Source: Alicyclobacillus kakegawensis NBRC 103104 (GTDB lineage: Bacteria; Bacillota; Bacilli; Alicyclobacillales; Alicyclobacillaceae). From it: a stretch of DNA of 64,000 nt. Shown here piece by piece: positions 7,446 to 63,645 of the stretch. The position numbers were made by a program, and so were the translations under genes. Under the pieces are notes generated by a model, which saw only the letters and a program-made list of their open reading frames with translations, did no database searches and had not been told where the DNA came from. The stretch's first letter is position 1. The number at the start of each line of letters is the position of its first letter. The DNA lies in the NCBI RefSeq assembly GCF_001552655.1, contig NZ_BCRP01000007.1, positions 62,001 to 126,000 of the forward strand, in the 5' to 3' direction.

Positions 7446-7961
7446 TCAGTACAGCAGGATGACGATGAGCAGGCCGAAAAGCACCCCGAGATACTGCCAC
7501 AGCCTCTCGTTCCTCCGCTGACTGTCCCGCGCTTCCTGTTCCAGCCGGTTGAGATGCGCCAGCACCACGGCGAACTGTTGGCTCTGGTGCGCTCGGTCGG
7601 AGGTCCCCAGCGTGGCGCCGAATTCGCGCAGGACCGACCAATCCTGCTTCGTCAAGGCCATGCGGCTGCGGCAGGATTCAATCCCGTCGGCAAACGCGGC
7701 CTCCACGCTGACGTCTGCCTGCTGGAGAGCGGCGCATGTGCGCTCCAAAAGCGCGTCGGCCGGCGGCCCGGCGCGTTCAGCCACACGCGCGAGGGCCTGC
7801 GGAAGGGGCGTGACACTGTATTCAATTTCCGCCTGCAAGAGCAACATCGCGTGCGTCAGGGAGCGCAGGTGACGCGGACGGTCCCGGTAGTCCCGAGCAA
7901 TGCGAAAGCCCATTCCGGCACAGGCGACAAAGACCAAAGCCGCGCCGATCTCGCGGATCAT
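7446..7961 (-). CDS. spoIIIAB: Stage III sporulation protein AB
   Basis: A 171-residue bitopic protein. An N-terminal membrane helix (AALVFVACAGMGFRIARDY) and a C-terminal helix (YLGVLFGLLIVILLY) flank a helical domain resembling the GspF-like cytoplasmic fold (LRSLTHAMLLLQAEIEYSVTPL is the diagnostic start). It is thought to work with the SpoIIIAA ATPase as the motor-membrane interface of the mother-cell complex. The ATG overlaps the spoIIIAA stop by 4 nt (ATGA). Confidence 0.93.
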   Translation of the reverse strand: MIREIGAALVFVACAGMGFRIARDYRDRPRHLRSLTHAMLLLQAEIEYSVTPLPQALARVAERAGPPADALLERTCAALQQADVSVEAAFADGIESCRSRMALTKQDWSVLREFGATLGTSDRAHQSQQFAVVLAHLNRLEQEARDSQRRNERLWQYLGVLFGLLIVILLY

Positions 7962-8986
7962 CCACGCGGTCTCCGTCCCACCGAAGGTGTCACCGGAAGC
8001 TTTCGCCCATTCTCGTCAAGTATCGCCTCCACCGTCCCCGGGCCGCGCCGCCGGCTGAGCACCACAAACCTCTGAAACGCGCGCATGGCATACAGGTCCC
8101 GCATGTACGGGCGCTCGCACCACTCCTCTAGGCTGCGGGCGTGGGCGCTGGCCAGGACAGCCACCCCCGCATGGGTCGCCTCCAGGATGGCGTCCGTGTC
8201 CTGAGCCCGGCCAATCTCGTCGGTCACCACCAACTCCGGGGAGAGGCTGCGAATGGCCATCAGCATCCCTTCCGCCTTGGGGCAAGCGTCCAGGATATCC
8301 GTGCGCGGCCCCAGGGAGAATTGAGGCATGCCGTCCACACAGCCGGCGATTTCGGAACGCTCGTCGACCACGGTCACCTTGACGCCCGCCATCCAGCGCC
8401 CATCCCCTTCGCTGAAGCGCCGCGCCAAGTCGCGCAGCAGGGTCGTCTTGCCACACTGCGGAGGAGAGATGACCAGGGTGCTGTGCGGACGCCGCGTCTC
8501 GTTGTCCACTAAGGCGGACCAGACGCTGTCCGCGCAACCAATCCGCTCCTTGGCGATCCGAACGTTGACGGAATTGATGCTGCGAACGGATCGGACTGTA
8601 CCTGATTCATACAGGACCGTGCGGCCCGCCACGCCCACTCGGTGGCCTCCAGCCATGGTTACAAACCCCCGGCGAAGCTCATCCTCCACGGCGTATAACG
8701 ACGATTGAGTCACAACCTGCAGGACCCGAGCGAGGTGTTCGGACTCCACCCGCACACCCTCGCCAGGCAAATCGGTCAACTGCCCATCCGGGGCCAGGAA
8801 GGCGTTGAGGCCATCGCCACACACCTGCAACGGCTGACCCAAGCGGAAGCGGAGTTCTTCAACCCGATTGCGATCCGACTCGGCCAATTTTTCGAGGCAC
8901 GTCAAAATGTCCGGCGGACACACCCGGACCACCGCCTCCCAACTGCGGTGTCCAACGCTCGGTGCACGCTGCTCGTGCGCGTCCAC
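7958..8986 (-). CDS. spoIIIAA: Stage III sporulation protein AA (secretion-type ATPase)
   Basis: A 342-residue cytosolic ATPase related to type II/IV secretion ATPases. The Walker A motif is PPQCGKTTLLRDLA near residue 175. A Walker B-like ELVVTDEIGRAQD is near residue 250, with VVDERSEIAGC between them and an ASAHARSLEE sensor segment after it. It energises the SpoIIIA complex in the mother cell. The start is GTG at 8986, with GAGGAGGTGG 6 nt upstream. First gene of the spoIIIAA-AH operon, downstream of a SigE-like promoter. Confidence 0.95.
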   Translation of the reverse strand: MDAHEQRAPSVGHRSWEAVVRVCPPDILTCLEKLAESDRNRVEELRFRLGQPLQVCGDGLNAFLAPDGQLTDLPGEGVRVESEHLARVLQVVTQSSLYAVEDELRRGFVTMAGGHRVGVAGRTVLYESGTVRSVRSINSVNVRIAKERIGCADSVWSALVDNETRRPHSTLVISPPQCGKTTLLRDLARRFSEGDGRWMAGVKVTVVDERSEIAGCVDGMPQFSLGPRTDILDACPKAEGMLMAIRSLSPELVVTDEIGRAQDTDAILEATHAGVAVLASAHARSLEEWCERPYMRDLYAMRAFQRFVVLSRRRGPGTVEAILDENGRKLPVTPSVGRRPRG

Positions 8987-9307: not shown

Positions 9308-9589
9308 TCACCCCGAGCGGGCGCCATATAAAATACAGGCCACCCCGATGACAATCCAGAGCACGCGCCCCCATGCCAGGCGTTCCGCAAGCCCGGCCAC
9401 GCCTAAGGTGGTGACCGACACCAGAATGAACGGCCCCACCAAGGCCAACGCGCCGTTGATTTGTAGCGCCTTGGCCGCTGTGCCGGCGTAGAGCATCAGG
9501 ATGGCCGCAGTTAACTCAAGCAGGCCCGACATCACGCGTAGTCCGGCCATGGCATAGACAACTCGATCCACGACATGCCACATCCGCAC
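9308..9589 (-). CDS. yqhV: YqhV family membrane protein (DUF2619)
   Basis: A 93-residue protein with three hydrophobic helices and the YqhV signature: RVMSGLLELTAAILMLYAG, AKALQINGALALVGP and ILVSVTTLGVAGL. Its position between efp and spoIIIAA is exactly that of Bacillus yqhV. The molecular function is unknown. The ATG at 9589 has a run of seven G's about 5 nt upstream. A terminator hairpin separates it from efp, so it may have its own expression during sporulation. Confidence 0.85.
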   Translation of the reverse strand: MRMWHVVDRVVYAMAGLRVMSGLLELTAAILMLYAGTAAKALQINGALALVGPFILVSVTTLGVAGLAERLAWGRVLWIVIGVACILYGARSG

Positions 9590-9709: not shown

Positions 9710-10267
9710 CTACGCGCGGGACACGTACTCTCCGCTGCGGGTATCGACGATGATTCGGTCTCCCTCGTTGATGAATAACGGCACGCTCAGCGTATACCCC
9801 GTCTCCAAGGTCGCTGGCTTGCTGCCGCCCTGAGCTGTGTCCCCTTTGATGCCCGGTTCTGTGCGGGACACTTCCAACTCGACAGTGTTGGGCAAATCGA
9901 TACCGATGGTCTGGCCCTCGTGCAGGACCACGTAGCAGTTCATGTTCTCCTTCAGGAAGTTTAATTCATATTCCAACTGGGACTTTTGAATCTGAATCTG
10001 CTCATAGGTTTCGGTATCCATGAACGTGTACTGATCCCCGTCGTTATACAAATATTGCATCTCCCGGGTTTCGATGCGGGCCCGGGGCACCTTTTCCCCG
10101 GCGCGGAACGTCTGCTCCTTGACCGCCCCCGTCTTCACGTTTTTCAGTTTGGTGCGCACAAACGCCGCGCCCTTGCCAGGCTTGACGTGCATGAACTCAA
10201 TCACACGGTAGATGTTCCCGTCCACTTCAATCGTCGTTCCAGTCCGAAAGTCATTGCTTGAGATCAA
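9710..10267 (-). CDS. efp: Elongation factor P
   Basis: A 185-residue protein that binds between the P and E sites of the ribosome and relieves stalling at polyproline stretches. The N-terminal KOW-like domain carries [11 protein letters not shown] and the tip loop [11 protein letters not shown]. The modification-site lysine is the K of KPGKGAAF; a modification partner is not in view. It is followed by the OB domains ([30 protein letters not shown]). The start is TTG at 10267, with AGAGGAGG 8 nt upstream; the longer in-frame start at 10312 lacks a site and family similarity. It is linked to the upstream peptidase gene, as in Bacillus. Confidence 0.97.
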
Positions 10268-10315
10268 TCTCGCGGCCTCCTCTGTATCACTCGGTACCGA
10301 GCATATGGTCATGGT

Positions 10316-24181: not shown

Positions 24182-24267
24182 GACCAAACCGCTCCTTACT
24201 TAGACTCGCTGTCCAGGCACCCACAGGGGATTTCTCTGCCTGCAACATGCGGTTGAAGTAACAAATC
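24182..24267 (-). ncRNA. Candidate L21 leader RNA
   Basis: The 86-nt leader between the rplU promoter and the rplU start contains a hairpin (CAGGCA / TGCCTG, 24214-24242, with inner CCC/GGG pairs). The Firmicutes L21 leader is known as a ribosomal-protein regulated element in this position; I recognise the position and a stem-loop, not a full consensus match. Confidence 0.45.
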
Positions 24268-62449: not shown

Positions 62450-62761
62450 ATGAATCTATTACCTCGGTACCGCGAGTTTGACATCGGCGCCGGGACTTAT
62501 GGCGATCCGCAGATTTTTATGGAAAGAACAAGCCAATCGATTGCGAGACATTTCCGAGGATACCCACAGTCGAAAGGAGATGTCGTGATTGGAAACGGCG
62601 TGTGGATAGGTCTGCCAGTGGGCTTGGCCGTTGGAGAAGAGCTTGCGGGACGTGCACGCCACAAAACCGGTTGGTGTCCGCTCAGTCACGCGCGCAACCC
62701 AACAACAGGCCCCACCTTAGCGGCAGAGCCTGCGTTTGCGTTTGCGACTCCTTATCCGTAA
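62450..62761 (+). pseudogene. Remnant of a CatB/Vat-like hexapeptide acetyltransferase
   Basis: A 103-codon ORF whose first 54 codons keep two landmark pieces of xenobiotic acetyltransferases (left-handed beta-helix): FDIGAGTYGDPQI at the start and SKGDVVIGNGVWIG at codons 42-54. The normal 60-80 residues between them, including the IGxFCSIA and LGGxH catalytic segments, are gone. After GVWIG the sequence no longer fits the family. The ORF has no ribosome binding site. It is read as an internally deleted, C-terminally broken gene. The one base change D-to-G in 'GNDVWIG' also fits decay. Confidence 0.6.
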
Positions 62762-62982
62762 TACCCAGGATATCCGGAATAGCCAGGTCGGCTGCAACGT
62801 GATCCCGGGCACCCTGGATCGACGACCACATTCCTCGTGACAGGTTGATAAAAGTGTTGCGGCACGTTCACAATTACATGCCTATTGATGTTTACAATTG
62901 GATGGACATAAGGGACCATCCGAGGGATGTAGTGGTCGCGGACACAGTAACGAGGAGGGCATACGATTGGCGGGCAATTCAT
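62752..62982 (-). CDS. CotD-like spore coat protein
   Basis: A 76-residue Pro/His/Tyr/Cys-rich protein. The N-terminal CPPIVCPPRYCVRDHYIP, then VPYVHPIVNINRHVIVNVPQ with the repeated P-x-x-H-P and N-x-H pattern, follow the CotD inner-coat protein layout (P-I-V-H-P, P-H-I-H-P). The tail is Gly/Tyr/Pro-rich (GYSGYPGYYG). The start is ATG at 62982, with GGGGGTG 8 nt upstream. It lies 39 nt downstream of a tiny membrane protein gene on the same strand and may be cotranscribed with it. Its 3' end overlaps the end of the acetyltransferase-remnant ORF, on the opposite strand. Confidence 0.72.
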   Translation of the reverse strand: MNCPPIVCPPRYCVRDHYIPRMVPYVHPIVNINRHVIVNVPQHFYQPVTRNVVVDPGCPGSRCSRPGYSGYPGYYG

Positions 62983-63021: not shown

Positions 63022-63126
63022 TCAACATGCTGCTCCGTCGGTTCCCGGAATGAGCAAGATGAACAGCACGAAGATGATAAGAAACACGACCGCCCAACGC
63101 GTGAATACGCCAAAACACCCGTCCAT
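63022..63126 (-). CDS. Tiny single-helix membrane protein (YjcZ-like)
   Basis: A 34-residue protein: MDGCFGVFTRW, then the helix AVVFLIIFVLFILLIP, then GTDGAAC. GGGGGAT lies 6-8 nt before the ATG at 63126. It is very similar to the next gene (63293-63433) and related to the gene at 9159-9260. The F-V-L-F-I-L-L core recalls YjcZ-type sporulation proteins. It is too short for normal gene finders. Probably located in a membrane; function unknown. Confidence 0.65.
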   Translation of the reverse strand: MDGCFGVFTRWAVVFLIIFVLFILLIPGTDGAAC

Positions 63127-63292
63127 GTATCATCCCCCTTTCAGACTGACGTGCGATTTACCATACGAAATCGGACCTCCATTCGCAGCGACGCTTGCCT
63201 ATACTTGTCTGCGTATTCCTTCGCCTTCCTGTGCGGCGCCACAGATGCAAACCCCCGCCGCAGCAAGCAGGTATGAGGCCCATCCGCACGGC

Positions 63293-63433
63293 TCAGGAGA
63301 CAGCGACTCCACCACCCGGACCGCAGGCATCGGTCCCCACGTAGCCTCCGTATTCCGGAATCAAAAGGATGAACAACACGAAGATAATCAGAAATACAAT
63401 CGCCCAACGTGTAAACAATCCGCCGTCCACCAT
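63293..63433 (-). CDS. Tiny single-helix membrane protein with Gly-rich tail (YjcZ-like)
   Basis: A 46-residue protein: MVDGGLFTRW, the helix AIVFLIIFVLFILLIP, then a Gly-rich tail EYGGYVGTDACGPGGGVAVS. The first 26 residues match the 63022-63126 protein at nearly every position, so the two are tandem paralogues. The ATG at 63433 has GAGGGGGTG about 7 nt upstream. The tail recalls the Gly/Tyr-rich ends of spore coat proteins. Function unknown; a spore-envelope role is inferred from the CotD-like neighbour. Confidence 0.68.
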   Translation of the reverse strand: MVDGGLFTRWAIVFLIIFVLFILLIPEYGGYVGTDACGPGGGVAVS

Positions 63434-63645
63434 TTCACACCCCCTCGGACAGACATACCCCACTGTACGCAATCGGCCCTGTGAGGGAAGCGGCATTTTC
63501 CCGTCCCGGGCGGTTCGCCTCGCGCGAAGCACGGGAGCAACAGGGTGCGACGGATAACCGCAGAACGATTCGTTCAGCAGCGCCGACATAAATGGACGGC
63601 AGAGCCCTTCCTGTACGGCGCACACCATACACACACAAGCGCATG

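Follow-up and report, generated by a model that had tools for sequence, protein, structure and literature searches.

A multicopy family of one-helix microproteins in Alicyclobacillus kakegawensis, with a shared promoter and a probable place in the spore envelope

Three small genes and their surroundings

The 64,000-nucleotide stretch of A. kakegawensis DNA analysed here (the window) contains three very small open reading frames, all found at the positions claimed in an earlier note (Table 1). Two of them, at the right end, encode protein B, MDGCFGVFTRWAVVFLIIFVLFILLIPGTDGAAC, and protein C, MVDGGLFTRWAIVFLIIFVLFILLIPEYGGYVGTDACGPGGGVAVS; the third encodes MDVSILIRWIVVFLVIFVLLMFFVFNLFRQRSA. The start of C is either ATG 63433 or the next codon, GTG 63430, and its homologues start at the GTG position. 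B and C are near-identical from about residue 7 to residue 26; their N-termini differ slightly. The gene beyond B was earlier described as CotD-like. Its product is indeed Cys/Pro-rich, as in the inner spore coat protein CotD, but its match to the CotD model (PF11122) is weak (E 0.38, cut-off 22 bits), and the likeness concerns this neighbour and not the tiny proteins. This gene has no promoter motif of its own and is probably co-transcribed with B. The B ortholog in the sister species adjoins the same CotD-like gene, which also recurs at the family copy on contig C43.

Table 1. Coordinates of the genes and promoter elements (window positions unless a locus is named)
Feature	Position	Strand	Basis
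spoIIIAA (context)	7958..8986	-	PF19568, 307 bits
One-helix 33-aa protein, single-copy, distant relative of the family; divergent from spoIIIAA	9159..9260	+	
YqhV-like DUF2619 protein (context)	9308..9589	-	PF10942, 106 bits
efp, elongation factor P (context)	9710..10312	-	PF08207, PF01132, PF09285
CotD-like Cys/Pro-rich protein, 76 aa, directly 3' of B	62752..62982	-	PF11122, 11.7 bits
Protein B, one-helix, 34 aa, family member; short Cys-ended tail	63022..63126	-	sequence and family search
Sigma-K-type -10 of B, CGTATGGTA; C at -18	63159..63167	-	motif model, 17.6 bits
Upstream box of B, GGCAAGCGTCG, GG-N7-CC variant; putative activator site	63189..63199	-	family-motif alignment
Protein C, one-helix, 46 aa, family member; Gly-rich tail	63293..63433	-	sequence and family search
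Sigma-K-type -10 of C, CGTACAGTG; C at -18	63461..63469	-	motif model, 22.8 bits
Upstream box of C, GGGAAAATGCCG; putative activator site	63491..63502	-	family-motif alignment
Barrel-like proteins with Trp-rich or RWAV-type C-terminal helix	L013:3442-3768, L015:2592-2888, L016:3143-3445, L201:563-883		

The 33-residue protein had been taken for a dispersed third copy of the B/C pair. Our analysis shows instead that it forms an ortholog group of its own, with a single copy in a fixed place between efp/yqhV and spoIIIAA; its relation to B and C is distant and visible only at the profile level (score 40.8, against a permutation maximum of 27.2). Of 52 order genomes searched, 51 have a counterpart, and the one that lacks it is 62% complete. 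The ortholog loci have efp on one side in 30 of 30 cases, with spoIIIAA, where the locus extends far enough, seen in 27, and the proteins are characterized by an M(D/E) start, an RWIVVFL segment and a basic end.

Copy number, constraint and distribution of the family

A search of the whole source genome with the longer right-end protein (C) matched 19 places, 17 of which are full copies scoring 58-68 bits; the other two, at 3.9 and 6.9 kb of contig C7, have a shorter, divergent sequence. B and C are thus genuine members of a family, as proposed, but one of about 17 copies in this genome rather than three, with the 33-residue protein outside it. The 17 copies, among which are five tandem pairs, share the core TRWA(V/I)VFLIIFVLF(F/I)LL(V/I)P, in which T, W, A, V, F, L, I, I, F, V, L, F, L and P are invariant. 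Each member consists of a short N-terminus, a near-invariant TRWAVVFLIIFVLF-LL-P helix and a variable Gly/Ala/Tyr/Thr/Cys tail, and is preceded by a ribosome binding site. The tails may be Gly/Ala/Tyr-rich, of the type TTTCTTTPV(Y/C), or of a longer form with an ESSS end; many of them terminate in Cys or Tyr. Comparison of the core with the sister species gives pS 0.193 and pN 0.004 (pN/pS 0.02, 12 reciprocal-best pairs). B and C are not chance open reading frames, because the genome holds 17 full copies at such scores and pN in the core lies so far below pS. The start codon, ribosome binding site and helix, whose lack of conservation the earlier note had named as speaking against its proposal, are all conserved in related genomes. 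In the retrieved loci, 133 distinct members were recorded with a Shine-Dalgarno sequence 5-8 bases long, in most cases at 5-9 nt from the start codon, figures that are descriptive since the starts were picked partly by this signal.

The search of relatives with the core that had been suggested (profile A2) gave matches in 55 of 55 genomes of the order, our own included, with 2 to 28 copies each. The profile finds nothing in six further genomes of the class, and in a phylum-wide sample of 299 the source genome alone matches, the other 298 being without the family. In a class sample of 349, matches were found in 54 genomes; 33 of these belong to the host order and 21 to other families, and among the 21 there are 18 strong matches (six families). 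Families f131 and f141 each gave a weak, single match. Strict specificity to the order was dropped after this class sample, and the family is absent from most other Bacilli. The named records with the family in a scan of GTDB representatives are Alicyclobacillus, Tumebacillus, Kyrpidia and Sulfoacidibacillus, all placed in Alicyclobacillaceae by NCBI, together with metagenome-assembled genomes (MAGs). One member occurs in an Anaerolineae MAG (L225, JAIMBM010000029.1); the same sample series yielded Alicyclobacillus MAGs, and the match is probably a binning error. No model in Pfam, NCBIfam or PHROGs reaches its cut-off (for PHROGs, a significant E-value) on the family, and no annotated copy was found among plasmids. 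B and C are members of a family that is new to description and missing from protein-family libraries. The spread of the family, its sporulation-type promoters and the lack of library models bear out the earlier suggestion of lineage-specific, probable spore-envelope microproteins.

A shared promoter and a shared helix

The tiny genes also have a promoter in common. CATANNNT occurs 27-50 nt upstream of the start in 40 of 119 non-redundant family upstream regions, compared with 13 of 224 other genes from the same loci (p = 4e-11). The full motif spans 48 positions: a palindrome-like GG-N7-CC box at about -33 to -23 from the -10 element; a C at -18; and then C(A/G)TANNNT(G/A)-A, which includes the -10 itself, CRTANNNT. 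In ten-fold cross-validation 79 of the 119 held-out regions, about two thirds of the non-redundant copies, score above 8 bits, as do 15 of 595 shuffled regions, 4 of 119 reverse-complemented regions and 11 of 222 other genes (5%); only the held-out figures count, because training on shuffled sequence also gives matches (31 above 8 bits). About one third of the upstream regions are without the motif, and part of these belong to second genes of pairs, which often lack it, as expected of one shared transcript.

Position -18 corresponds to the fourth base of a sigma-K-like -35 and is C in 63% of the regions and T in 7%. Sigma-E and sigma-K promoters have a common -10 and differ at this base, which is T for sigma-E and C for sigma-K and is recognised by a Gln or Arg of the sigma factor (Eichenberger et al., PMC517825). 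The likeness of the family promoter to the sigma-K type suggests that expression occurs late, in the mother cell. The form of the GG-N7-CC box would be compatible with a dimeric activator at about -41. GerE and SpoIIID sites were considered for the upstream element and rejected, as neither consensus is enriched upstream (p 0.16 and 0.53, respectively); GGACAA alone shows weak enrichment. The source genome encodes one sigma-E-type factor with ISQSY and two sigma-K-type factors with ISRSY. Both of the latter (G000:C2:179535-180206 and C4:117242-117883; L297, L298) exceed the cut-off of the sigma-K model and have the Arg typical of sigma-K; two sigma-K factors in one genome would be out of the ordinary. 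Other tiny genes were also seen behind this motif: several open reading frames (MDGGFPVRRAEIAFLVIFVLFFILTPFF and others) at about 3.3-7 kb of locus L020 (G000:C7:1-9900), each following a near-identical family promoter (12.7-18 bits); and very small Arg/His-rich proteins (MHRHSHRHRRRIVIHLDPGQRALIIARRRR...) at about 1148 (+) of L164 and 4633 (+) of L136.

A protein of about 100-120 residues recurs next to the family. It opens with a barrel-like part (G-WV-FRTPYG-H-GI-E-VT), continues in a Gly/Tyr/Pro linker and closes with a hydrophobic end, which in one branch reads GRWAVSFLIIYALFGL. The end helix of these proteins aligns with the tiny core at an hhalign score of 34.6 (permutation maximum 17.4), and the tiny profile alone finds barrel-protein ends in six genomes at 21-23 bits. 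The barrel-like proteins listed in Table 1 adjoin tiny genes or are co-regulated with them. Eight of nine stand-alone barrel genes, some of them mutually close relatives and none used in training the model, carry the family promoter (11-23 bits), and those 3' of tiny genes, probably co-transcribed with them, are without a motif of their own. The barrel profile matches 56 of 59 order genomes; no curated model scores above its cut-off on these proteins. In the AlphaFold model, which is of low confidence (pLDDT 57), a short part resembling a barrel is followed by a disordered linker and by a helix spanning residues 83-104. Foldseek with this model gave no match at E <= 0.001, and a PDB sequence search with the barrel profile found nothing. 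The barrel-like N-terminus recalls Sm/SH3-like barrels, a weak lead, as PF14438 (SM-ATX) reaches 21.4 bits (cut-off 29.8) in a sub-family of partners lacking the shared helix, with no significant structural match. A protein with a barrel, a Gly/Tyr linker and a hydrophobic end, encoded in a Bacilli genome outside the order (L216:553-804, +), may be the Bacillus equivalent of the partner family.

Comparison with known proteins and proposed role

The earlier note had compared the tiny proteins with YjcZ, and the resemblance is visible in the helix. The YjcZ_2 proteins of Bacillus (PF09680) are likewise of about 25-45 residues, with one hydrophobic helix, a VLFILLI core, a Gly-rich part and several copies per genome, and B. 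subtilis yjcZ belongs to the sigma-K regulon (PMC517825), the type suggested by the promoter signature of the tiny family. The helix cores can be aligned (FLIIFVLFILLIPG in the tiny family, FALIVVLFILLIIVG in YjcZ), and hhalign gives a probability of 81% with a score of 24.8, above all 300 column permutations by a thin margin (maximum 23.6). That the tiny proteins are true members of PF09680 which have drifted is nevertheless unlikely. The model exceeds its cut-off (21 bits) in none of 59 order genomes and on none of the 17 copies, although the B. subtilis control was positive. It is present in three other genomes of the class, from which the tiny family is absent, and the two were never together in any genome checked for both. 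In addition, the invariant TRW before the helix is absent from YjcZ; the Gly-rich part precedes the C-terminal helix in YjcZ, whereas the tail follows it in 17 of 17 tiny copies; and the tiny family, unlike YjcZ, has up to 28 copies per genome. The helix of the 33-residue ortholog family does not stand above background against YjcZ, as 77 of 300 permutations reach its score. The best reading of these sequences is that the tiny family may work like YjcZ in outline, but it is not filed as YjcZ because PF09680 is found in 0 of 59 order genomes and the profile comparison is suggestive only.

Two other explanations were weighed. The size of the tiny proteins, their single hydrophobic helix and occurrence as tandem and dispersed copies recall the membrane toxins of type I toxin-antitoxin pairs, in which a basic C-terminus, like that of the 33-residue protein, is common. 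This origin is very improbable, given that no order genome searched lacks the family, that its core is frozen and its promoters are of the sporulation type, that coat-like and barrel genes adjoin it, and that the only Rfam RNA near the loci is a tRNA, with no match to an Rfam antitoxin. It is also improbable, to a lesser degree, that these are envelope microproteins of sigma-E-controlled or vegetative expression. The -10 element common to sigma-E and sigma-K (PMC517825) and the position of the 33-residue gene next to spoIIIAA would suit such proteins; against them, the discriminating -35 position favours C over T by 63% to 7%, and TATAAT is found at promoter distance in 0 of 119 upstream regions.

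Our preferred reading, to which we give a probability of roughly 0.6, is that B and C belong to a paralogous family of late-sporulation, single-pass microproteins of the spore envelope, switched on by sigma-K and an activator. According to this proposal, sigma-K with the activator would turn on the family genes in the mother cell late in sporulation, and the helix would insert in the outer forespore membrane with the lone Arg at its N-terminal end facing the mother-cell side. The frozen helices may pack, perhaps as oligomers, with one another and with the shared helix that closes the co-regulated barrel-like protein. The tails, many of them Cys- or Tyr-ended, could then tie or cross-link the membrane layer to the coat or cortex, and the family would be the Alicyclobacillaceae counterpart of the YjcZ-type proteins of Bacillus. 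Alicyclobacillus lacks at least some of the classic sporulation genes of Bacillus, and SpoVID is reported missing from the two Alicyclobacillaceae examined (PMC3533761). A more speculative possibility, which we hold only tentatively, is a modular spore-envelope system built on a single frozen transmembrane helix. This would act as a common plug that brings many different tails and the barrel protein together in the same membrane layer, controlled by sigma-K and a dedicated activator, and the system would replace YjcZ and coat tethers such as SpoVID.

Spores of Alicyclobacillus withstand hot acid and cause spoilage of juice, and to our knowledge their coat has been little described. With a near-invariant helix and as many as 28 copies, and found in all order genomes searched, the family is a strong candidate for a main component of this envelope. 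The helix common to the tiny and barrel proteins opens a direct test of partner binding, and the family promoter defines a regulon in which other unknown spore genes, including that of the proposed activator, may be found. By description, and as a lead, the family can also be set beside SscA of B. subtilis, a tiny late-sporulation protein that affects the assembly of the spore coat. Elsewhere in the window, a ribosomal protein L21 leader (Rfam RF00559) lies at 24192-24264 (-), with a score just over the cut-off.
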